This document shows, in pieces, positions 6,926 to 36,841 of a stretch of 36,841 nucleotides of DNA. Each line of letters starts with the position of its first letter. The stretch's first letter is position 1. The notes under the pieces are model-generated. The model was given only the letters and a program-made list of their open reading frames with translations, was not told the origin of the DNA and searched no databases. The DNA comes from a virus: positions 1 to 36,841 of the IMG/VR virus record IMGVR_UViG_3300037502_004173; one strand, given 5' to 3'. Position numbers and translations under genes: made by a program.

Positions 6926-7507
6926 ATGCGACCAGAAACGTTATTGGCTAAATTCGATTTAAAAGGCATAAATTACGAACCGCAAAAAGGCGGTAAAGGC
7001 TTATTTTCTCTGGAAGACCAACTCGGCATGGTGGGGATAACCTGGAAGGAATCTCCAGTCGGTTTTCTGGTTTTGTTTGTGGAGTTACTGGACAACGCGC
7101 AATCTCGAAGAGCACTGGAAAAGGCAGTTCTTGCGGAATTGTATACGCTGACCGATGACTGGCGCGGCCAGAAAAGCGAAGCCGCGTTCGCAGCCATTGT
7201 GCGCGCAGCTGTGGAAGAGGCGATCACTCCACAAGGCCGTATTTGCTCTTGCTGTGGCGGCAGCGGTAAGTACCGAGCACCAAACCGCCACTACCGTAAA
7301 TGCATGCATTGCAACGATGGCCGAGTAGCGTGGGATTTAGAAAGCCGCTTCGCCGCAATGTGCTCCGGCCGCTTCGTTTGCACCTTCTCCGTATTCAAAC
7401 GCCAATACCACCCAGTTCTCGATGGCCTAGCAGATTGGCTAGCCGCAAAACGTAACGCCGCAATGCTGGCACTGATGGAAAGGATAGAGAAGGAGAGGGT
7501 GGCGTAG
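6926..7507 (+). CDS. Late antiterminator, Q-like (phage_antitermQ family)
   Basis: The 193-residue protein has a zinc-finger-like Cys pattern in the middle (CSCC at 107-110, then CMHC at 126-129, with GGSGKY between), as in the Q family of phage 82-type lambdoid phages, and a basic C-terminal region (CTFSVFKRQYHP...). Q proteins load onto RNA polymerase at the late promoter and let it ignore terminators. It is the last gene of the rightward early operon, starting immediately after the helicase loader. A second, broken copy of its 3' end lies at 11952-12065. Confidence 0.75.
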   Translation: MRPETLLAKFDLKGINYEPQKGGKGLFSLEDQLGMVGITWKESPVGFLVLFVELLDNAQSRRALEKAVLAELYTLTDDWRGQKSEAAFAAIVRAAVEEAITPQGRICSCCGGSGKYRAPNRHYRKCMHCNDGRVAWDLESRFAAMCSGRFVCTFSVFKRQYHPVLDGLADWLAAKRNAAMLALMERIEKERVA

Positions 7508-7684
7508 TTGGAAGAGGCCTGTCAGTGATTGACTTACGGTGTAGCGAGGGCTGGCAGGTTTGTTTTCATTAACCTATTGATTATAAATTGAAATGACATA
7601 AGAAAGATTGCATCATAGTGGGATAAACGGCTTTCGCTGAGTTAAGCGTTAGCACTAGAATAAAAGTTATTGTCGGAGAGAATA
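7508..7684. other. Spacer after Q, left boundary of the cargo locus
   Basis: No gene seen. A loose hairpin pairs CCTGTCA (near 7523) with TGGCAGG (near 7551) across about 28 bases, followed by a T-rich stretch, and may be a weak terminator after Q. Further on, GAGTTAAGCGTTAGC (7639-7653) resembles the cassette-junction end (GCGTTA) of Vibrio integron attC sites; together with the attC-like sequence at 8307-8366 it would bracket the next gene as a former cassette. Confidence 0.4.
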
Positions 7685-8257
7685 TTGGAAACGTTGTTGT
7701 ATATAGGTATTGGTTTGGCTGCGCTCTTTGGGGCAGGCTATATCGCATGGCTATCAGTTTCTTTACTAGAAGCAGTATTAACCATTGTTGCGGATCGTTC
7801 TAACTTAAAACACTTCAAGTCTGACTTTGAAAATGCTGTAGTCCATAATCAACCTGATTGGGAAGGAATGAGAAGAATCGCTCAAACTAGAAACTTAAAG
7901 GCCCATCAAATATATTGGACTCTTGAAGATTATGCTCGAGATATTAAAACTGGTCAAAATGACAATCTATCTGATCATCTAGATTTAATAGAAAGCTATA
8001 TTTCATCATATAAGCACGATGAACCTTTCCAATCTCTACCAAGTGACATGAGACTGCACCTTGTACGTGTCCGAGATAAACTTGGTGGTACTGAATTACT
8101 AGATCCGCTCACGAACCAAATTAAAGATTTGTTAGCGATCCATTCTAAAGAAAATAAAAAATCAAAATTTTATACTGTTGCTGGCTTTGTCACGGGATTG
8201 ATAGGTATAGCCTTGGCAATATTTTTCTATTTTGTACCACTGAACTCTATCACTTAA
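7685..8257 (+). CDS. Two-TM membrane protein, cargo gene of unknown function
   Basis: I start at TTG giving METLLYIGIG because GGAG sits 6 bases upstream; a TTG at 7670 is the alternative. The roughly 190-residue protein has an N-terminal hydrophobic region (about 5-35), a polar helical middle of about 120 residues, and a C-terminal transmembrane segment (VAGFVTGLIGIALAIFFYFV). I recognise no family. It lies in the accessory locus after Q and is bordered by integron-cassette-like sequences, suggesting acquisition from a Vibrio integron. A role in superinfection exclusion or defence is only a guess. Confidence 0.65.
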   Translation: METLLYIGIGLAALFGAGYIAWLSVSLLEAVLTIVADRSNLKHFKSDFENAVVHNQPDWEGMRRIAQTRNLKAHQIYWTLEDYARDIKTGQNDNLSDHLDLIESYISSYKHDEPFQSLPSDMRLHLVRVRDKLGGTELLDPLTNQIKDLLAIHSKENKKSKFYTVAGFVTGLIGIALAIFFYFVPLNSIT

Positions 8258-8306
8258 GATACCTCTTCTAGTGTTCAGCATGAGCAAGTTATAGACAAAT
8301 AGTGTA

Positions 8307-8366
8307 AACAAACTGTTTAGGTGGATTACTGTGGTTTCGATAATGCGTTGTCCACGCCTTAACAGG
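8307..8366 (+). repeat. Degenerate integron attC-like remnant
   Basis: The left part (AACAAACTGTTTAGGTGGAT) resembles the conserved beginning of Vibrio attC repeats (ACAAA-GCGTTTAAGAGGGATT, as I remember it). The right part, GTGGTTTCG, GCGTTG and CGCCTTAACAGG, resembles their conserved end. The centre is short and the terminal GTTRRRY is degenerate, so it is probably not functional. It lies 50 bases after the stop of the membrane-protein gene, where a cassette's attC would be. Confidence 0.4.
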
Positions 8367-8393
8367 TAGTAATCTTATTTTGGAGAGGAGTTT

Positions 8394-8864
8394 ATGTCCG
8401 ATGTGACAGTCGCAGTGGTTACTGCGGTTGCTACAGTTGTAGCTGGAGCAATTGGCGCGTTTTGGTCATATAAAGTTAGCAACAAAAGCATTCTGATTAA
8501 GACAGTAACAGAAGAGCGAGCTAAGTGGCGAAATGACTTGAGGGATGTGTTTGGAGAGTTTTCTAAACTGACATACGAGCAAGTAAACAATTCAAATGCT
8601 AGTAATAAACCAAGAATATATGAACTGAAATCAAACATAGTGCTGCGAGTTAACTATAAGAGAAAGCACAAATTGGATAGCGATATAGTGAGGCTAAGTG
8701 AGATCATTGTAGCTAGCTTAGACAATGGTTCTTCGAAAGAGTTAGTGTTGAGAGATTTAAATCTCCTAGAGGAAAAACTCCAGCAATTAATTAAGCAAGA
8801 ATGGGACAAGTCCAAAGAAGAGGCTGTTACTGGTAAGATTGAACGGAATAAAAACATCACATGA
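8394..8864 (+). CDS. Single-TM membrane protein, cargo gene of unknown function
   Basis: A 156-residue protein with a strong ribosome binding site (GGAGAGGAG). Residues about 4-27 (VAVVTAVATVVAGAIGAFWS) form one transmembrane helix; the rest is a charged, mostly helical cytoplasmic domain starting with KTVTEERAKWRNDLRDVFGE. This N-anchored 'TEERAKWRNDLR' layout recurs in small uncharacterised bacterial proteins, but I know no function. It is read in the same direction as Q and ends just before repeat A. Confidence 0.65.
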   Translation: MSDVTVAVVTAVATVVAGAIGAFWSYKVSNKSILIKTVTEERAKWRNDLRDVFGEFSKLTYEQVNNSNASNKPRIYELKSNIVLRVNYKRKHKLDSDIVRLSEIIVASLDNGSSKELVLRDLNLLEEKLQQLIKQEWDKSKEEAVTGKIERNKNIT

Positions 8865-8907
8865 CAAAGTACTCATGACTGGTTGGCAACATGTACTTGG
8901 GTTTGAT

Positions 8908-9039
8908 GTTGTTCGAGCCTCTTCGCATAACTTTGTAGGGGATCTACATAGTTGAGGTTTAGACGGCTATGTTTTGGTCAGAACAACAATGACATCCTTC
9001 CTTTGCTGCTGGAACTATAAAACGCCCCCAGGGGCGTTT
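8908..9039. repeat. Cargo-locus direct repeat A, copy 1
   Basis: This stretch aligns with 12087-12217 almost base for base, e.g. GTTGTTCGA, TCGCATAACTTTG, CTACATAGTTGAG, CGGCTATGTTTTGGTCAGAA and CCTTCCTTTGCTGCTG in the same order. It ends in a terminator and adjoins the 3' end of the TOPRIM gene. Confidence 0.9.
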
Positions 9040-9040
9040 A
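9019..9040. terminator. Bidirectional terminator ending repeat A copy 1
   Basis: AAACGCCCC and GGGGCGTTT form a 9-bp stem with a 2-base loop (CA), flanked by A/T runs. It ends the minus-strand TOPRIM/ATPase operon and faces the rightward transcript from Q. Confidence 0.85.
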
Positions 9041-9048
9041 ATTGAGTA

Positions 9049-10182
9049 CTAATTTGATCTTGGCTTGGATAAGTTTGGACTACAGCTCCAATTTAAGACG
9101 GATTCACCAATAAACTCCCATTGCTCGGATATATAAGGTGTTAGACTCCCACGGATGCGTCTAAGGTTTGCTCTAGTTAGTTTTTCGATTGACTGCTCTA
9201 GAATTTTGCTACCAAATCCGTTTATTTCAATGCAAGTATTACAGTTTGTCTCATTGCCCGTATTAGTACAGCTTTTTACTGTTCTACATGGCTTATGGTT
9301 AAACAAATGCTGTTCTTTAAATATTCTTTCCCAAAATTTAATTTTTCTTCCCTTATCTAGTATCCATGCTTCTTTTAAAGATAATCCATTCTTGTGATCA
9401 AAATATTGTCTAAACTTATATTCTGTTTTTTCATCTATTCTTATTACGTTGTCAAAATCGTCAATTTTAGAATTATCAATTACATCAATTAGAATAGACT
9501 CTGGTATGATGGATTCAGCTTCGTGGAAGTCAAGAATAATAGATTCCTGATTTTGATAAAATCCTCGTTCTTTGTGTGCCTTAAACTTAGAAGAGGTACT
9601 ACCTTCAGAACTTTCTGGGTGCTTTTTATCATTGTCAACTATACATATACCAAATTTATTATTTTTCATCATATCAATGTATTTCTTATGTGTTCTAGAA
9701 CCTCCCCCCTCCAAATACTGTATATGTGATTTTACTGAGTTACCAAAATTGGCTCTAGCATAAGCACTAGTAATAATATCGAAAAACTCACAATCAGTTT
9801 CATCTTCTCCAAGAAGTATTGCTCCTTGATGAAAGCTTTCTAATTTTGCAACTTTGTAAGAACAAACGATATTTAATTTTTTATCATCTTGATGAATTAA
9901 AAAGTTGTTTTCATCTTCATTACTGAAGTCAAGTGTAAAAGTATATTTAAATGAGTTTTTAAATTGATTCAACTCGCTTTTATATTCTCGAAGGTCTTCT
10001 GCATACTTTTCATATCGTTGGCCATAAAAACCAGCTTCTACAATATCATCACATATAGACTTTTTGCTTTTAATAATATGAATTCGTTGCCCGTGACATT
10101 CTAGTACTTTTTGAAGACATTCTTGCTTTACCAAGTCGCCTCGGTAGTCTCGCGGATTACAGTTTTTTAAAATTACAAACAT
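9049..10182 (-). CDS. TOPRIM-domain protein of a two-gene defence-type module
   Basis: The 377-residue protein carries a TOPRIM-like core: the Glu motif at 126-130 (LLGEDETDCEFF), a glycine motif at 158-161 (YLEGGGSRT) and the acidic DxD at D183/D185 (CIVDNDKKHP), with EAESIIP at 221-227 where OLD-family TOPRIM nucleases have a conserved Glu pair. An N-terminal segment of about 115 residues and a C-terminal part with a Cys cluster (C299, C305, C314, C317) that may bind zinc are extra. It starts 3 bases after the ATPase stop, so the two form an operon. ATPase-then-TOPRIM order is known from PARIS (AriA/AriB), and related pairs occur in AbiL; the exact type is unclear. The effector is probably a nuclease. 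The gene is visibly AT-rich compared with the phage core. Confidence 0.7.
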   Translation of the reverse strand: MFVILKNCNPRDYRGDLVKQECLQKVLECHGQRIHIIKSKKSICDDIVEAGFYGQRYEKYAEDLREYKSELNQFKNSFKYTFTLDFSNEDENNFLIHQDDKKLNIVCSYKVAKLESFHQGAILLGEDETDCEFFDIITSAYARANFGNSVKSHIQYLEGGGSRTHKKYIDMMKNNKFGICIVDNDKKHPESSEGSTSSKFKAHKERGFYQNQESIILDFHEAESIIPESILIDVIDNSKIDDFDNVIRIDEKTEYKFRQYFDHKNGLSLKEAWILDKGRKIKFWERIFKEQHLFNHKPCRTVKSCTNTGNETNCNTCIEINGFGSKILEQSIEKLTRANLRRIRGSLTPYISEQWEFIGESVLNWSCSPNLSKPRSN

Positions 10183-10185
10183 ACT

Positions 10186-11754
10186 TTACCTACCAGAGAA
10201 GAAACCAATAGGCCAGTTGTTTAGATCACCTTCTTCATCGAATGATGCAGTTTCAATATTAGTAATGCCGTCTTTTTTATTAAAGATAACAATGTTTACT
10301 AACTCAGGGCATTGATGTTCTTCGATATAATCACCGAGAGCATCAATCATTGTTTTACTGTGTGTTTCAAAAATAATTTTTGGACGCTTATATTTTGATT
10401 TGGAGTTAGCTGCATGTACTACGGAAATAAATACTTTTGCAAGAAGAGCCTGTAGTTCTGGGTGTAAATGTAATTCAGGTTGCTCGATGACAAATATCGG
10501 AGCGTACTCCAATTTACGTCTCCTATTCAAGGGCCCGTTATTTTCTAACCACAGGGACGTAATTATTGGTAATATTTGTGAAAACCCAAAACCCATATCA
10601 CTAATGTTGTGAACTTCATCGTCTATTTTGATTTTTATTTCGTAGTGTAGAGAGTTCGTTTCAGGTAGTAAGATCATAAATCCAAAGTTTTCCTGTGACC
10701 AACGTTGGAATCTTCTCATTTGTGTGTAATGGAAACTTTGTAGCAACATTGCTAAGTTTGAACCAGTATGATCCAGTTCTTCAACCCTGAGATCTTGAAA
10801 TCGATAGAATCTTTCTGCACTAGCTCTCAGTGGGGCAATGTAAGTTATACTAGCTGAATACTTTTCTAATTGTTCATTGATATTTTCAATTAACTTTGTT
10901 AGATAACAAGCTAGTAATTTAGAGTATATGATTTCACATATATTTTCATTTGGCTCCTCTTGTATTAAAAATAATTTAAATAGATTTTTTAAAGTATCTT
11001 TCTTACTGGTGATATTTAGGTTTGAAACTAGGTAAATTTCACTTTCTATCTGATCTTCTTCAAGTAAGTTATGACTAGCGTAAGGTTTTATTAATTCAAT
11101 TACATCTAATATGTAGTTTCGAAAAATAACATCTGATTCTTCATACGCATCATTAAGAGCGAGCCATTGTTCTTCGATTTCATCATCTGTTTCATCTAAC
11201 TCTGGAATTCCATGGTCTAAAGATAAAATAAGTGGAAGTAATCCCTTGGCTGGTGAATATTGTCGAAGTGATTCAGAGCTTTCGACCTTTTCATTGTTAA
11301 GGTATACAGTGCAGTTTTTATCAAATAAAATATAAACTTCATTTCCTTCAATTTTTATTTTTATCGAGCTCGCTACGGTTCTTTTACCTTTTTCTTTTAC
11401 ACCCAGCTCTAGTTCAATATCTGATGACCTTTGAAAAAGAGGCCTTATTATTCCTTGTTTATTATAAGACTTGTATTGAAGTTCAAATTTATAGTCGAGA
11501 AAAATTTCTTCACACTCGGACTTGTTGTTTTTAGCTTCTAGAAACGCCCCGTAATCTACATATTGGCCGTACCAAAGGATAGGCCCACTGGTTTTGGACT
11601 CAAAAGATTGCCTGAGCAGGGGTAATGTTCTTAAGAGGCTACTTTTACCACAACTGTTCTTACCTACAAAAACAGTGATTGGTTTAAGGTCTACGTAGGG
11701 TTGCTCTGACGAATGCGAAAAGCTTCTTAGGTTTCGTGCTCTAATCTTGTCCAT
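10186..11754 (-). CDS. OLD-like AAA/ABC ATPase (DUF3696-type C-terminus)
   Basis: The 522-residue protein has Walker A GKNSCGKS (31-38), an ABC-like signature region (GFGFSQ, 388-393), Walker B IFVIEQPELHLHP (420-432) and a switch histidine in FETHS (H465). The EQPE variant and the ending NWPIGFF are what I associate with the DUF3696 class of AAA ATPases. About 300 residues between the Walker motifs form a charged coiled-coil-like insertion. In two-gene defence systems such an ATPase senses infection and holds or triggers the TOPRIM partner, encoded here immediately downstream. Its 5' side abuts repeat B, leaving about 100 bp for the promoter; TACAAT is a candidate -10. Confidence 0.8.
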   Translation of the reverse strand: MDKIRARNLRSFSHSSEQPYVDLKPITVFVGKNSCGKSSLLRTLPLLRQSFESKTSGPILWYGQYVDYGAFLEAKNNKSECEEIFLDYKFELQYKSYNKQGIIRPLFQRSSDIELELGVKEKGKRTVASSIKIKIEGNEVYILFDKNCTVYLNNEKVESSESLRQYSPAKGLLPLILSLDHGIPELDETDDEIEEQWLALNDAYEESDVIFRNYILDVIELIKPYASHNLLEEDQIESEIYLVSNLNITSKKDTLKNLFKLFLIQEEPNENICEIIYSKLLACYLTKLIENINEQLEKYSASITYIAPLRASAERFYRFQDLRVEELDHTGSNLAMLLQSFHYTQMRRFQRWSQENFGFMILLPETNSLHYEIKIKIDDEVHNISDMGFGFSQILPIITSLWLENNGPLNRRRKLEYAPIFVIEQPELHLHPELQALLAKVFISVVHAANSKSKYKRPKIIFETHSKTMIDALGDYIEEHQCPELVNIVIFNKKDGITNIETASFDEEGDLNNWPIGFFSGR

Positions 11755-11874
11755 AACGATTCTTCGGTTGAATTTAACTTTTCAATTGTAGGGAATTATC
11801 TGAAAAATAAGAAGTTAGTAGCGCCTAAGCGGTGCCAAAGTATGCTATTGATCTGGTTTTATATGAACTTTGAG

Positions 11875-11949
11875 GATGAGTGTTGACAATCACTCCTACA
11901 TGGAACTCTTTTTTCAGTATGAAAAGGCTCGCGAACGCGGCGGGGTTTT
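11875..11949. repeat. Cargo-locus direct repeat B, copy 1 (decayed)
   Basis: It matches 14024-14097: GAGTGTTGACA, then TCACTCCTACATGG, ACTCTTT and a GC-rich hairpin ending GGCGGGGTTTT in the same order. The terminator stem is damaged (GCTCGCG...) and the T-run is cut short (TTTTGCG), so this copy looks inactive compared with copy 2. Confidence 0.8.
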
Positions 11950-11951
11950 GC

Positions 11952-12065
11952 GTTTTCACTTTCTCCGTTTTCAAACGCCAGTACCATCCCAGTCGCGATG
12001 GTTTGGCTGATTAGTTGGCCGATAAAAGCAATATCGCGATTTTGGCGCTGGCAGAAAGAGTTTAG
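11952..12065 (+). pseudogene. Remnant of the 3' end of a second Q antiterminator gene
   Basis: Read on the plus strand, codons from 11952 give VFTFSVFKRQYHPSRDGLAD, then a TAG at 12012-12014 in place of the Trp codon of the intact gene, then LADKSNIAILALAERV and a stop. The intact Q C-terminus reads FVCTFSVFKRQYHPVLDGLA followed by DWLAAKRNAAMLALMERI. Only about the last 38 codons remain. The remnant begins abruptly at the end of repeat B copy 1, so its upstream part was lost at a recombination joint. Confidence 0.85.
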
Positions 12066-12086
12066 AAAGGGGGGCTTAAGTGTGTA

Positions 12087-12217
12087 GTTGTTCGAACTGC
12101 ATCGCATAACTTTGGTAGAAGCCTACATAGTTGAGCTTTCAACGGCTATGTTTTGGTCAGAACAATAATGACTCCCTTCCTTTGCTGCTGAAACTAAAAA
12201 CGCCCCTCGGGGCGTTT
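12087..12217. repeat. Cargo-locus direct repeat A, copy 2
   Basis: Second copy of the 8908-9039 sequence, 21 bases after the Q remnant. Here the order Q-end, repeat A is uninterrupted, which shows the ancestral layout; in copy 1 two membrane-protein genes separate Q from repeat A. Confidence 0.9.
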
Positions 12218-12220
12218 TTT
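12196..12220. terminator. Bidirectional terminator ending repeat A copy 2
   Basis: AAACGCCCC/GGGGCGTTTT with a TC loop and T-runs on both strands. It lies directly after the KwaB stop on the minus strand. Confidence 0.85.
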
Positions 12221-12226
12221 GGCACA

Positions 12227-13246
12227 TTAGCTTGCTGGGCTTACAATGCTGCCACTGTCGGTAGCATAGTACTTTTTAGTAGTCATGCCTTGCTTGTAGT
12301 AATCGTTAAGGAGCTTAAGGAAGTTTCGACCTTGCTTCTCATCTTCAATTACTATTTTACCATCTTCATTAATTGTGAACTCTTCACCTTGAAACATTTT
12401 TAGTACATCGTTCATTGATAGAACTTCATTTTTGTCTAAGGTGGTGTGATTACCTTTCTCAGCGATATGGGCAAGCGTTTTTCTGAGAGATGGTTTGTGT
12501 AATATCGCTTGTTCTAAAATATCTAAACCTTCAACCAGGTCAAACTCTTTAATGGTATTTAGTGTTTTTTGGGCTGCCTCGGTGAACTCTGCCTCAAGCC
12601 CAACAATTGCTTCAAAGCTTTTCTTATGGAAAACATAGAACTTTTCATTGATATATATACAGTCGATTTTATCATCGAAATTTACGACGCTTCCATCAAA
12701 CGTTTTTAACTCACCACCTGTTTTGTCGAACATGGCTGAAATACGTTGCAATACGTCTTGTGGCTCATTAGTTGTCACTTTTCCCTTACTGATTTTTCTA
12801 AAGGAATAAGTTAATTCAGTTCCTTGCTGTACTTTAATGCAATAAGCCCAAAGGTCATCTTGTATATCTGTAAGTGCTTTGAGTTCTGGGATTTTATCAG
12901 ACTTAATATTTTCATTGATAACCTTTGCAAATGAAATGGCATTGTTCATTGCGTAAGCATAGATTTTATTATCTATATCGTCATCAATAACAGTGTAGTT
13001 TTTCATTTCAATATCATCTTTTGATGCGTGAGAAATGATCTGGTTGGAAAGAGTTTGCTTAAAAAATGTAGCTATATCTGGTGCTATTGGTGCTTTTACA
13101 AGTTTGAAGTCATGTTTATCAGTCACTTTTGCACTTCTGCTCATGCCTGTCTTTAAGTGCCTTGTTACAAAATACAGTGAGACCTTAGCTTTTTTATCAC
13201 TTTGTAGCTCTTCAGCGTATTCCAGCAACTCTTCCAGTTTTAACAT
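12227..13246 (-). CDS. kwaB: Kiwa defence protein KwaB (DUF4868)
   Basis: This 339-residue soluble protein follows a four-TM protein by a TAATG overlap. Length, gene order and sequence style (N-terminal KVSLYFVTRHLK; middle segment KIDCIYINEKFYVFHKKSFEAI; C-terminal DUF4868-like helical region) match KwaB. In the Kiwa system KwaA is a membrane-embedded sensor and KwaB is the cytoplasmic, DNA-binding effector that blocks late infection steps. The assignment comes from recalled family features, not a search. It is oriented against the late operon and ends at the repeat A terminator. Confidence 0.82.
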   Translation of the reverse strand: MLKLEELLEYAEELQSDKKAKVSLYFVTRHLKTGMSRSAKVTDKHDFKLVKAPIAPDIATFFKQTLSNQIISHASKDDIEMKNYTVIDDDIDNKIYAYAMNNAISFAKVINENIKSDKIPELKALTDIQDDLWAYCIKVQQGTELTYSFRKISKGKVTTNEPQDVLQRISAMFDKTGGELKTFDGSVVNFDDKIDCIYINEKFYVFHKKSFEAIVGLEAEFTEAAQKTLNTIKEFDLVEGLDILEQAILHKPSLRKTLAHIAEKGNHTTLDKNEVLSMNDVLKMFQGEEFTINEDGKIVIEDEKQGRNFLKLLNDYYKQGMTTKKYYATDSGSIVSPAS

Positions 13247-13863
13247 TATTTATCCTCGTGTGATTCAGCGTAAAATAGTTTAGGCCCTACATCTTCTATA
13301 TCTAAATAGTCATCTTCTTCTAAATATTTTGATTTAGTTAAAATCATTCCAGTCCGTTTCTTTTTGCTCTCTATATCTAAATATGTAACTTGATATAGTG
13401 TATATTTGATACTAATAGTGGGATTAATAAGTATCATGCTGGAATTTGTATAGATTAATGCTGTTACCAATAATAAAACAGCAATTGGAATAATATTTGT
13501 TAAGGTCGATAGGTCTTGAAATACGAAAGGAATTATATAGGTAAATAAATAACTAATAGATTCACTGTTTTTGTTTTCTATGTCTACTATTTTTACTGTA
13601 CGTCCGCTAGTTCGGCATCTTCGTTTGACATTTTTAAGAAATATTATTAGTCCGAAGATTCCAAATAAAGAAATGAGTATTAAAATTGTAACGGCACCAA
13701 AATATTTGGCGAATATACTTAATGACTCGTAGCTTATTCCATTCCAGTTTAAATAGTTTCTATATGTGTATATTTGAACAAAGCACATAATAAAAAATAG
13801 AGGAAGATATGACACAAGGAAGAGTGATATACGAGCTCCTAAATGTAACTTGTTTACTCTCAT
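13246..13863 (-). CDS. kwaA: Kiwa defence protein KwaA, four-TM membrane protein
   Basis: The 205-residue protein has hydrophobic segments at about 12-34, 53-77, 103-118 and 122-145, and a polar C-terminal tail. Length, topology and position directly upstream of kwaB agree with KwaA, the membrane component that senses phage attachment or injection. There is a usable ribosome binding site (AGAGG) before the ATG. It is AT-rich like kwaB. I saw no convincing -35/-10 pair in the 160 bases upstream. Confidence 0.8.
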   Translation of the reverse strand: MRVNKLHLGARISLFLVSYLPLFFIMCFVQIYTYRNYLNWNGISYESLSIFAKYFGAVTILILISLFGIFGLIIFLKNVKRRCRTSGRTVKIVDIENKNSESISYLFTYIIPFVFQDLSTLTNIIPIAVLLLVTALIYTNSSMILINPTISIKYTLYQVTYLDIESKKKRTGMILTKSKYLEEDDYLDIEDVGPKLFYAESHEDK

Positions 13864-14023
13864 GATTAGCCTCTACTTATGACAACTGACATTCTAGTAC
13901 ATATGATGTTGTAACGCATCGACTTTTATGTCGTCATCAATCACATAACCTATGTTAAATATAGCAGGATACTGTTTGTTTATACAGTCTTCTTGGGCGT
14001 AATTTATATTCCCACATCTAGTG

Positions 14024-14100
14024 GGTGAGTGTTGACATTCACCCCTAAATGGCGCACTCTTTCCACTATCCAAAACCTCGCCAACTCGGCGGGGTTTTTT
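14024..14100 (+). promoter_or_regulatory. Repeat B copy 2: putative late promoter and Q-responsive terminator
   Basis: GAGTGTTGACATTCACC contains a consensus -35 (TTGACA, 14032-14037), but no good -10 follows at 16-18 bp (best CACTCT, 14055-14060), so the promoter call is tentative. A perfect terminator lies about 40 bases downstream. In lambdoid phages the late promoter sits between Q and lysis with a terminator just inside the transcript, which fits this place. It is the intact counterpart of 11875-11949. Confidence 0.5.
14076..14100 (+). terminator. Terminator 1 ahead of the lysis genes (tR'-like)
   Basis: A 7-bp stem CCTCGCC/GGCGGGG with loop AACTC, followed by TTTTTT. It would stop late transcription unless Q has modified the polymerase. 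Confidence 0.85.
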
Positions 14101-14162: not shown

Positions 14163-14444
14163 ATGTCGAATTCATGCAGTGATAAACACAACTCAGTTCA
14201 ACACGAATCACACCAAACCAAAATTCTTGTAACCGTTGCTTCGGCCGTTATCGCTGCACTCCTTCTGTGGATTGGCGGGACGGTTAGCAACAACCAAGTT
14301 TCTCTCGCAACCCTTCAAGCTGACATGCTTAACCTTCGAGTCGATATTCAGGAAGCTGCTGACAGAAGTGATGATTTTCGCAAAGAATACAACTCAGATA
14401 AGCGGGAGTTAGAGAAGCGTTTACGAGCACTGGAGAGTCAATAA
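14163..14444 (+). CDS. Single-TM holin-like lysis protein
   Basis: I start it at the ATG giving MSNSCSDKHN, after both terminators. The 93-residue protein has a short polar N-terminus, one transmembrane helix (about 21-41, ILVTVASAVIAALLLWIGGT) and a charged coiled-coil tail ending EKRLRALESQ. Its position just before the endolysin, with a TAATG overlap, suggests a holin or other lysis-timing protein. Single-TM phage lysis proteins are diverse, and I cannot tell holin from pinholin. Confidence 0.6.
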   Translation: MSNSCSDKHNSVQHESHQTKILVTVASAVIAALLLWIGGTVSNNQVSLATLQADMLNLRVDIQEAADRSDDFRKEYNSDKRELEKRLRALESQ

Positions 14445-14875
14445 TGTCTCAATTCTACTTAGGCAAACGTAGCCTCACTCGTTTGCACAAGCTACACCCC
14501 AAAATGGCCGCATGTGTGGCACTCGCCATCACTTATCTTGAAGAGGTTGATCTCTCTGTGAGTGAAACGGTAAGAACCAACGAACGCCAACACCGATTGT
14601 TTTACGGTAAGCCAAAGAAAACGTGGACGCTCAATAGTAAGCACCTAATTCAAAAGGATGGTTTCTGCCATGCGGTTGATCTCGTTCCCTTACTCAACGG
14701 TGAGCTGGCTTGGGACAAATGCCCAGTAATCGCCAAGGCCATGTTTAAAGCGGCTGAGGTTATCGGCATTCGCATTCGATGGGGTGGGGATTGGAACCAA
14801 AACGGCTCAAGTGCCGATGAACACAAACGGGGCTCTTATGATGGGCCGCACTTCGAATTGTTAGAGATTTTATAA
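14444..14875 (+). CDS. Endolysin, M15-family L-alanyl-D-glutamate peptidase
   Basis: A 143-residue zinc peptidase with the motifs SKHLIQKDGFCHAVD (65-79; zinc ligands H67 and D79) and WGGDW (113-117) ending in DGPHFEL (H136), as in VanY/peptidase_M15_4 phage endolysins. It cuts the peptide side chain of murein. There is no signal peptide, so it should need a holin for release. It overlaps the preceding gene by one base. Confidence 0.92.
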   Translation: MSQFYLGKRSLTRLHKLHPKMAACVALAITYLEEVDLSVSETVRTNERQHRLFYGKPKKTWTLNSKHLIQKDGFCHAVDLVPLLNGELAWDKCPVIAKAMFKAAEVIGIRIRWGGDWNQNGSSADEHKRGSYDGPHFELLEIL

Positions 14876-15412: not shown

Positions 15413-16627
15413 ATGACTACAGTACGACTACGTATCTCTGATGCGAAAATTAAAAGCTATTTGAAAAGTGATACTGTCACGAGGCTTAGAGATGAACGGT
15501 ATGCGTTGGAGCTGCGTTTTCATAAGTCTCGTGAGAGTGCTACTTGGTGGTTGATTGATAAACGCAAGAACAATGGCAAGTACGGAAAACCCAAGTGGGA
15601 GCGTCTTGGTTTATGGCCGCGTTTGAACGCAAAGGCTTTGTTTGAATTATTACCTCACAAGATAGCGAGAATGGCGACAGAGACAGACCAAGTCGTTACG
15701 GATTGGAGTTGTTTTGGTGATTGTTTGCGTTGGTATGTGCAGCATATCGAATCGAATAAGGACATTTCATCAGAAAGGAAAAGTGCAGTGAAGTCGGTGG
15801 TGGTTAACCATCTACTGCCTGCACTGAGCGAATTGCCTCTCACCAATATTCGAAAGCACCATATCAAGGATTTGTTGGTTTGGCCGCTACGAGAACGGTA
15901 CGAACTCAGAACCGTGAAAGGGTATTTTGCCATTCTGAAAGCCGCTTTTAATCAGGCGTATCGGGAAGAGCATATCGTTTCTAATCCGGTTGCTGGCATG
16001 GTGTTTACTGACTTCATCAATAAGAAAATCACTCCGAATGAGGGCAAGATTCAGTCTGATGATGTGAGCCAATTGCTTGATAGGCTAAAGACCTATTCAC
16101 TGCAAAAGCAGGTGTTTGTTTTGATGCAGCTGGCGCATGGCACACGCATTCGTGAAACCCGTTTAGCTCGATGGAGCAATATCGATTGGGATGAGAATAT
16201 CTGGAGAATTCCTGCCTGTAATGCCAAGAACGGTGAGGCTTTGATGTTACCGATGACCTGGCAGATTAGAAACCTGCTTCAACAATATCGGCGTACTCAG
16301 AAAGAAGGCCAGAAGTTTATATTCCCAAATACGAAAGGGGATGCGCCCATCTGTAAGGACACGGCCAACAGCACTTATGCAGAGTGGAGTGAAGGAGAGT
16401 TTACCAGCCACCATTGTCGTAAGTTAGTCGGTACACGATTGACTGACCTTGGTGTCGATAAGTTCGTGCGTGAACGCATACTCAACCACAAGATGTCAGA
16501 CCTAGACCAAGCCTACATACATACAACGACAGAAGCCTTAAAACTCAAGGCATTGCAGACTTATCACAACTGGTTAGATCTGCAGGGCTTTATTTTTTTT
16601 CATGGGAAGATCGCGGGAAGATCCTAA
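15413..16627 (+). CDS. int: Tyrosine-type phage integrase
   Basis: The 404-residue protein has an N-terminal arm-binding-like part (1-95), a core-binding helical domain (about 96-190) and a catalytic domain with R245 (HGTRIRETRLARW), K272, H333-x-x-R336 (SHHCRKL), H359 (ILNHK) and Y368 (QAYIH), so the full active-site set is present. It should integrate and excise the phage at a host site. It lies between lysis and terminase, far from the repressor, which is unusual. Its 3' end contains a run of eight T's and codes for an atypical tail (after HNWLDLQ), so the last 15 or so residues may come from a slipped or shifted end. Confidence 0.92.
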   Translation: MTTVRLRISDAKIKSYLKSDTVTRLRDERYALELRFHKSRESATWWLIDKRKNNGKYGKPKWERLGLWPRLNAKALFELLPHKIARMATETDQVVTDWSCFGDCLRWYVQHIESNKDISSERKSAVKSVVVNHLLPALSELPLTNIRKHHIKDLLVWPLRERYELRTVKGYFAILKAAFNQAYREEHIVSNPVAGMVFTDFINKKITPNEGKIQSDDVSQLLDRLKTYSLQKQVFVLMQLAHGTRIRETRLARWSNIDWDENIWRIPACNAKNGEALMLPMTWQIRNLLQQYRRTQKEGQKFIFPNTKGDAPICKDTANSTYAEWSEGEFTSHHCRKLVGTRLTDLGVDKFVRERILNHKMSDLDQAYIHTTTEALKLKALQTYHNWLDLQGFIFFHGKIAGRS

Positions 16628-36049: not shown

Positions 36050-36841
36050 ATGAAACCTGTTCACTATTATTATGAGCAATTTAGGCCATGGTTAAAAAGG
36101 AAGTTAAGTGTAAGTCAGCTCAATATTCATAGTAGAGTTGATAAATTTTTGGATAAGTATCTTGATACAATCAAAAAAGGTGTTTGTTCAATACTATCTC
36201 CCACATGGTATTTGGCGAGAATCACGAACGAAGGGTTAAGCCGCGAAGACAAGACGAAAGTCGTTAAAACCAGAAACTACTTCTATTTGTTCGTATCAAT
36301 TGCGCTGATATTTCTGCTAGTTATTCTTGAGGTTTGTACAGGGAAAGGCATGGTTGGGATTCCTTCTAATCAACCAAATGACAATTTTCTTGGAGTTATT
36401 CTGTCATGGCTTTTCGCATTTTTTGTCTATGTCCTAATCTGGTCTAGGTGCAATGAAATTTTTATTGCATTTATATCTGACGCGTTAGATAAGACGGAGG
36501 GTAAAGAACCTTCTACAGATTTGACCTATAGGGATAGAATTACTTTATCGTTTTTCAGCTACGTTGAACTAATTCTAAATTTCGCAATAATTTACTCGTT
36601 TATGCCAGAGCCGTGGTTCGATAGTGGCCTAAAAAGCATTATTGACGCTGTATACTTCAGTGGTGTAACCATTACAACTTTAGGGTTTGGCGACATTTCT
36701 CCACAGCATTGGCTTCCTCAAATACTGGTATTGCATCAAGTATTGGCCGGATTCACGCTCATCGTAGTTAGTTTTGCTATTTACGCAGGAAGAGGATTAT
36801 CTTCGGAAAAGGAAACTGAAAACGAGGAAGAAACTAAGTAA
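36050..36841 (+). CDS. Potassium-channel-like membrane protein (moron)
   Basis: The 263-residue protein has four hydrophobic segments (about 77-96, 113-133, 163-184, 224-247). Between the last two lies a pore loop with the potassium selectivity-filter motif TTLGFGD (209-215, inside YFSGVTITTLGFGDISPQHW), as in Ion_trans_2 channels. A polar N-terminus of about 75 residues and an acidic C-terminal tail are cytoplasmic. The role in the phage is unknown; a membrane-depolarising defence effector, or a change to lysogen physiology, is possible. The stop codon is the last base of the window; if the molecule is circular, the ATG at position 1 follows directly, with GAGGAAG about 12 bases upstream as a candidate ribosome binding site. 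Confidence 0.8.
   Translation: MKPVHYYYEQFRPWLKRKLSVSQLNIHSRVDKFLDKYLDTIKKGVCSILSPTWYLARITNEGLSREDKTKVVKTRNYFYLFVSIALIFLLVILEVCTGKGMVGIPSNQPNDNFLGVILSWLFAFFVYVLIWSRCNEIFIAFISDALDKTEGKEPSTDLTYRDRITLSFFSYVELILNFAIIYSFMPEPWFDSGLKSIIDAVYFSGVTITTLGFGDISPQHWLPQILVLHQVLAGFTLIVVSFAIYAGRGLSSEKETENEEETK

Follow-up and report, generated by a model that had tools for sequence, protein, structure and literature searches.

Two cargo units in tandem between the antiterminator gene Q and the putative late promoter of a lambda-type prophage point to a defense hotspot in Vibrio prophages

Introduction

Genomes of the lambda type gain genes by moron accretion, in which extra genes settle at neutral joints, and in lambdoid phages a promoter with an early terminator lies between the antiterminator gene Q and the lysis genes. 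Here we analyze a locus at this position in the 36,841-nt viral record IMGVR_UViG_3300037502_004173, a lambda-type prophage that is called the window in its whole length and whose relatives with known hosts all come from Vibrio. Between its Q gene and its lysis genes lie two predicted defense modules, a TOPRIM-like/ATPase pair and a Kiwa system, set among two direct repeats, A and B, and a remnant of Q, in a slot that resembles the joints of moron accretion. In lambda the late promoter pR′ lies directly after Q, and in Stx phages pR′ precedes the toxin genes, whereas here the cargo stands before the putative late promoter (B) and is accompanied by inner remnants of Q and B. The explanation that we favor as a whole, and consider highly probable on comparative grounds, is that the stretch from Q to the late promoter is a cargo slot, a defense hotspot of this group of Vibrio prophages.

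Defense hotspots with conserved flanks and interchangeable cargo have been described in P2-like phages, P4 satellites and K139-like Vibrio prophages (Rousset et al. 2022, PMC9122126), and the present slot shares with them its conserved phage flanks and interchangeable defense cargo, Septu and PARIS being among the non-E. coli cases reported there. The Vibrio hotspot of that study occupies the interval between cI and the integrase of a P2-related phage, whereas the present slot belongs to a lambda-like phage and extends from Q to the late promoter, and tandem units with Q and B remnants, together with integron cassettes, are features of the present slot. Vibrio phages also carry integron pieces, with captured integrase or array segments located close to the attachment site (Qi et al. 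2023, PMC9892861); in the present slot, by contrast, single cassettes or short arrays lie internally, between Q and the late promoter, and antitermination is not mentioned in that paper. One of its phages, Va_PF430-3_p42, is a relative of the window with a nearly empty slot (L083; related loci are cited by L numbers). Moreover, chromosomal integron cassettes of Vibrio include anti-phage genes (review, PMC12409362), but those cassettes are chromosomal and mostly silent, whereas the ones described here are in prophages and often stand behind a promoter-like leader, P. Prophage defense hotspots, integrons in phages and integrons as anti-phage reservoirs were thus already known, and no report of this slot, or of cassettes within it, was found in the open-access library that was searched.

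Results

The window carries two slot contents in series

A reading of the window made from its letters alone (the sequence-only reading) had proposed that direct repeats and a broken Q end stand twice in the same order, and both the repeats and the order are borne out. Three families are present, all in direct orientation: A (8896-9033 and 12075-12212, 79% over 138 bp, blastn E 3e-34), B (11874-11949 and 14023-14098, 79% over 76 bp, E 1.5e-13) and the Q end (7375-7498 and 11951-12074, 70% over 124 bp, E 5e-13). All three lie well above chance, which was gauged by the best unrelated placement of each repeat within 5.5-16.5 kb of the window and reached 39-47%. The order is Q, leader P, two small genes, A1, TOPRIM-like/ATPase, B1, Q remnant, A2, Kiwa, B2 and lysis, made up of the following features.

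6926..7507, plus strand: gene for a Q-like late antiterminator, which forms the left border of the slot (PHROG match phrog_127, anti-termination Q-like, E 1.4e-24; identity 96-99% across 11 relatives).
7375..7498, plus strand: copy 1 of the Q-end repeat, within the intact Q (direct repeat D2, 70% to 11951-12074).
7513..7641, plus strand: leader P, a conserved post-Q leader with promoter-like TTGAAA-17-CATCAT (profile hits; promoter-like site at 7588).
7670..8257, plus strand: small predicted membrane protein gene 1, 195 aa, unit 1 cargo (open reading frame).
8315..8366, plus strand: candidate right half of an integron attC site, marginal (attC profiles, E 3.5e-4; 0.009 with the profile from the host integron alone).
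8394..8864, plus strand: small gene 2, for a predicted membrane protein of 156 aa; probably of the integron-cassette type (attC-flanked Vibrio homologues).
8896..9042, plus strand: A1, native spacer between Q and the putative late promoter, with a bidirectional terminator, unit 1 (D1 repeat; aligns with the near-empty-site spacers of L083 and L020).
9049..10182, minus strand: TOPRIM-like partner of the ATPase, 377 aa (homologues adjoining an ATPase in L082, in the slot, and in L098; invariant E126, D130, D183 and D185).
10186..11754, minus strand: AAA ATPase, 522 aa, of a two-gene predicted defense module (Pfam AAA_15 2e-26; PADLOC NsnB 7e-40, PDC-M55A 8e-39, AriA 2e-30).
11874..11949, plus strand: B1, apparently decayed late promoter-terminator element, end of unit 1 (79% to B2; mean 75% to 24 other copies).
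11951..12074, plus strand: remnant of the Q end, with two stops in frame, at which unit 2 starts (65% amino acid identity to Q residues 144-189, E 6e-11; codon-position test).
12075..12220, plus strand: A2, second spacer and terminator element (86% to A1 over 133 bp; 84% to the L011 copy).
12227..13246, minus strand: kwaB of Kiwa (PADLOC KwaB 6e-155; Pfam PF16162; solved KwaB homologues).
13246..13863, minus strand: kwaA of Kiwa (PADLOC KwaA 3e-100).
14023..14098, plus strand: B2, putative intact late promoter-terminator element (pR′-tR′-like), right border of the slot (24 conserved copies 3′ of Q; 11-pair terminator stem).
14444..14875, plus strand: endolysin, first recognized late gene (phrog_465 endolysin, 3e-39).

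B1, the Q remnant and A2 form one continuous block (11874-12212). Between the first Q end and A1 lie about 1.4 kb with the two small genes, and because of this placement the small genes were assigned to unit 1. The window is two complete slot contents in series: Q, then P, the small genes, A1 and TOPRIM-like/ATPase up to B1, followed by the Q remnant, A2 and Kiwa up to B2.

Related prophages hold different cargo, or none, at the same site

Aligning this interval across related Vibrio prophages, the check that the sequence-only reading had suggested, reveals different cargo, or none, between Q and B. The close relatives are 11 viral contigs (12 counting the window), 228 Vibrio genomes were searched as well, and the slots compared comprise 27 filled and 5 empty or near-empty ones. 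The backbone on both sides of the slot is 86-92% identical in DNA in 11 of 11 close relatives, and the proteins of the neighboring genes are close (helicase loader 91-98%, Q 96-99%, integrase about 94-99%, terminase about 83-99%), whereas the window cargo at 7750-14000 has no DNA match in any of the 11 except over the A and B remnants. Slots of these relatives measure 2.9-4.4 kb against 6.5 kb in the window, and slot guanine-cytosine content is 35-40% against 42-45% for the loci. Q and B are separated by only 36 bp in L016-L018, 157 bp in L083 and 190 bp in L020.

Single-unit versions also exist for both modules, in the same slot and orientation. Kiwa stands alone between Q and B, on the same strand, in Vibrio sp. 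S17_S38 (L074/L032), where KwaB is 90% identical while Q is 54%, and in L088 (KwaB 78%), where it follows an extra Rha-like gene; the block of Kiwa homology starts just past A2 and ends just short of B2. The ATPase/TOPRIM pair stands alone between Q and B in L082. Among the 228 Vibrio genomes a close KwaB occurs only in the L074 slot, and close TOPRIM-like proteins occur twice, in the L082 slot and in L098, where no Q or B is recognizable nearby. Because these single units stand in slots of distant phages, whose Q is only 47-64% identical to that of the window, modules have moved between phages with far-apart backbones. A prophage of non-Vibrio type (L089, 7383-9023) has a further Kiwa pair (78-82%) before its NinB-like gene, in the early region and outside a Q-B slot.

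The cargo is rich in defense genes as predicted from profiles. At least one PADLOC defense family was matched in 14 of about 25 scanned filled slots, the window modules included, and tblastn adds the Kiwa of L088. The matches comprise Hp1/Hp2 (L005), PD-T7-5 (L006), PDC-S20 (L012), AbiLi-like (L013, L080), RmrT/RmrA (L015), PDC-M31 (L022), AriA/AriB-like (L031), Septu with Gabija (L079), Shedu (L084) and retron I-B (L085), to which Pfam adds RelA/SpoT (L006), HNH (L010), NACHT (L011) and putAbiC (L012). In short, conserved phage genes flank varied or no cargo that is rich in predicted defense systems, as in a hotspot.

The join appears old, and growth of the slot recurs

How did one phage come to carry two slot contents? 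The sequence-only reading proposed that two related phages were joined so that whole segments stand in tandem, and this is supported in a refined form in which the junction is old. Against the Q genes of close relatives, the Q remnant shows about 7 changes at first, 7 at second and 15-19 at third codon positions, compared with about 1, 0 and 11 among functional Qs. From this pattern, part of its divergence accrued while it was a gene and part while it was junk. It is no closer to the window’s own Q (69%) than to those of relatives (68-73%), which, together with its decay, suggests either diverged relatives as donors or an event of roughly the same age as the group. B1 has a mean identity of 75% to other B copies and B2 of 90%. 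All three repeats fit a model in which the slot contents were joined at or before the radiation of the group and then decayed. At the junction about five bases, CGTTT, are common to the end of an L016-type B and to the Q gene, as read from the alignment.

An alternative hypothesis is that the phage duplicated its own segment from the Q end to B, for example by replication slippage, and that the cargo of one copy was replaced later. The similarity of A1 to A2 (86%), about the same as that of either to the L011 copy (81-84%), would agree with this, and the codon pattern of the remnant is also compatible with an old duplication followed by decay. However, the remnant stands as far from the phage’s own Q as from those of relatives, and Kiwa and ATPase/TOPRIM each occur alone in phages with distant Qs, so that modules demonstrably travel between phages. 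For these reasons we regard self-duplication as unlikely, and a recent duplication of the window’s own Q is unsupported by the codon-position test.

Remnants between modules also occur in other slots. L008 and L014 carry a truncated Q end and leader P between modules, one common scar with differing cargo on both sides, and in L012 a weak Q piece lies mid-slot together with P. In L013 and L015 the terminator half of B lies ahead of the last gene, which L009 has at 96-97%, and the block shared with L009 starts within the B remnant. On the simplest reading, Q, B and P sequences are where modules are added and exchanged, and growth of the slot by unit addition recurs, since Q remnants occur in three other relatives and B remnants in two. 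No deletion or swap by recombination of A with A′ or of B with B′ was observed in the assembled sequences compared. That the tandem results from misassembly, with two prophages of one genome merged into a chimeric contig, is hardly credible: repeats are typical mis-join places and the exact junction is missing from other viral contigs, but the inner Q piece has stops and about 20% divergence, unexpected from mis-joined intact prophages, and inner remnants of the same kind occur in five independent contigs (L008, L014, L012, L013, L015).

Two further repeat arrangements were noted. A 179-bp internal direct repeat (78%) surrounds the start of PDC-S20 in L012 (8498-8676 and 9900-10075), perhaps another duplication scar, and one genome (G022, L077/L078) has three Q copies in about 42 kb of chromosome, one with an inner stop, possibly from tandem or degraded prophages.

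B is the general right border and A a native spacer

The sequence-only reading took both A and B for conserved ends of a cargo hotspot; this holds for B, the general right border, and fails for A, which is the native spacer and terminator, retained in few loci. B is conserved behind Q in 24 other records and, under the exact pattern used, was found nowhere else in the viral collection than behind this Q group. Its TTGACA and spacer are conserved and its -10 is poor. A strong terminator lies within about 40 bases, and the 11-pair stem of this terminator shows paired changes in L031 and L083. B would therefore resemble lambda pR′-tR′, a late promoter-terminator placed before the lysis genes on which Q, identified as such by its PHROG match, is expected to act. 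A ends in a terminator that, in the window, lies directly behind the stop codons of both minus-strand modules. Because the same terminator sits in the spacers of near-empty L083 and L020, A is best understood as the normal separator of Q and B, with cargo insertable on either side. An exact A 24-mer has no match in viral contigs, and neither A nor B matches an Rfam family.

The modules of both units are flanked by A and B, as they would be if these were the ends of a mobile defense cassette and the tandem arose by two insertions of one element. Yet B stands at the same place in the empty sites, the A-like terminator belongs to the native spacer of near-empty ones, neither a recombinase nor a target-site duplication was seen with A or B, and in viral contigs B was found only behind this Q group; the empty sites contradict mobile-element ends, and we consider this hypothesis very improbable.

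Leader P matches its profile in the window, L006, L008 (two), L010, L011, L014 (two) and L012, and partially in L007, and different phages carry different genes after it. Separately, six Vibrio genomes (L067-L072, oriented over 1.7-2.7 kb) have a Q homologue (about 60-62%) followed by about 2-8 tandem copies of a B-like promoter-terminator with a period of 127-133 bp; in L068 these copies precede genes for baseplate and tail, an arrangement like that of a contractile tailocin. To our knowledge such a repeated late-promoter array is unusual.

Integron cassettes contribute cargo

The repeats, about 110 bp long, that separate modules in L075 and L079 are attC sites. The host chromosome of L075 has the same attC sequence at least 38 times, up to 95% identical, adjoining an integron integrase (chromosomal integron of genome G041). 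A profile derived exclusively from 56 sites of this integron detected 15 sites in the 27 filled slots (91 kb) and 7 in the remaining 646 kb, which amounts to a 15-fold enrichment (p 2e-9, sites treated as independent). Most slot sites begin within 30 nt of a stop codon, so that the order of gene and then attC is found in relatives’ slots, and L010, L007 and L006 have short cassette arrays behind leader P, one of which includes PD-T7-5. The single-strand folds of the sites are not clearly better than those of shuffles. These matches indicate that further slot cargo in relatives derives from chromosomal integron cassettes.

In the window the half-site at 8315-8366 is weak, and small gene 2 probably represents cassette-type cargo, its Vibrio homologues having attC on both sides in 4 of 7 cases (L106, L109, L111, L112). 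The association of leader P with attC is suggestive only, with p 0.07 among the 12 close relatives, window included, and 0.03 with the window half-site counted. P, A, B and the Q end gave no significant match as pieces of the host integron. A second attC cluster was observed close to the left end of related prophages, left of cI (L006 277-882, L007 323-1075, L009 953-2948), which suggests another cassette-bearing region.

Cargo and neighboring genes of the window

The Kiwa genes are adjacent, both on the minus strand, and together with the ATPase (AAA_15) carry the identities that the sequence-only reading had given them. The TOPRIM label of the ATPase’s partner stood less well: it rests on E126/D130 and a DxD pattern common to its relatives, the protein has no PADLOC, Pfam or PHROG match, and its AlphaFold model is poor (predicted local distance difference test score, pLDDT, 44) and does not confirm a TOPRIM fold. 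This module was not classed as PARIS (AriA with AriB) because the 377-aa partner lacks a match of AriB type (TOPRIM/DUF4435). For the ATPase, NsnB and PDC-M55A outscore AriA. Small gene 1 has no Pfam, PADLOC or PHROG match, and neither the TOPRIM-like protein nor small gene 2 has relatives in viral contigs. Outside the slot, an integrase gene (15413-16627) lies between the lysis and terminase genes, as in close relatives and L088, and the right end of the record (36050-36841) has a gene with an Ion_trans_2 ion-channel domain, possibly further cargo.

Discussion

From anatomy and comparative genomics we infer expression, dependence on Q and defense as follows. The B element of one phage would have been joined to the Q end of a related phage by short homology (CGTTT), after which the inner Q piece and B1 would have decayed, leaving B2 as the working late promoter; the proposed reason is that one Q and one late promoter suffice. 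Cargo would be tolerated between Q and the late promoter because, as we propose, neither the early nor the late operon is interrupted there, and recombination within the conserved flanks could exchange whole modules. Both modules, which lie on the opposite strand from the phage operons, would be transcribed in the lysogen by promoters of their own and would defend host and prophage against other phages.

Several observations weigh against this account. The B1-Q remnant junction was found in no relative among viral contigs, so that the join has been seen once, and the Q remnant and B1 are too decayed for the donors to be named. Most slots are without A, the -10 of B is weak, and a promoter scan omits B. 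No defense gene was recognized in the slots of L007, L008, L009, L010 and L014, and because of such filled slots the site appears, as far as profiles tell, not to be exclusively defensive.

We tentatively suggest, as a possibility that we rate below even, that the slot gives the chromosomal integron a mobile outlet. Silent cassettes, some of them anti-phage, would be placed behind P by integrase or by homologous recombination, allowing their expression and their spread by phage, and the slot would then grow by unit joining.

The slot would provide a precise, alignable site in Vibrio prophages at which defense genes collect, and it could be mined for new systems, several slots holding genes without a known family. 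The Q and B remnants would preserve a stepwise record of module gain, and the slot cassettes bear on the question of how the largely silent cassettes of chromosomal integrons gain expression and mobility.

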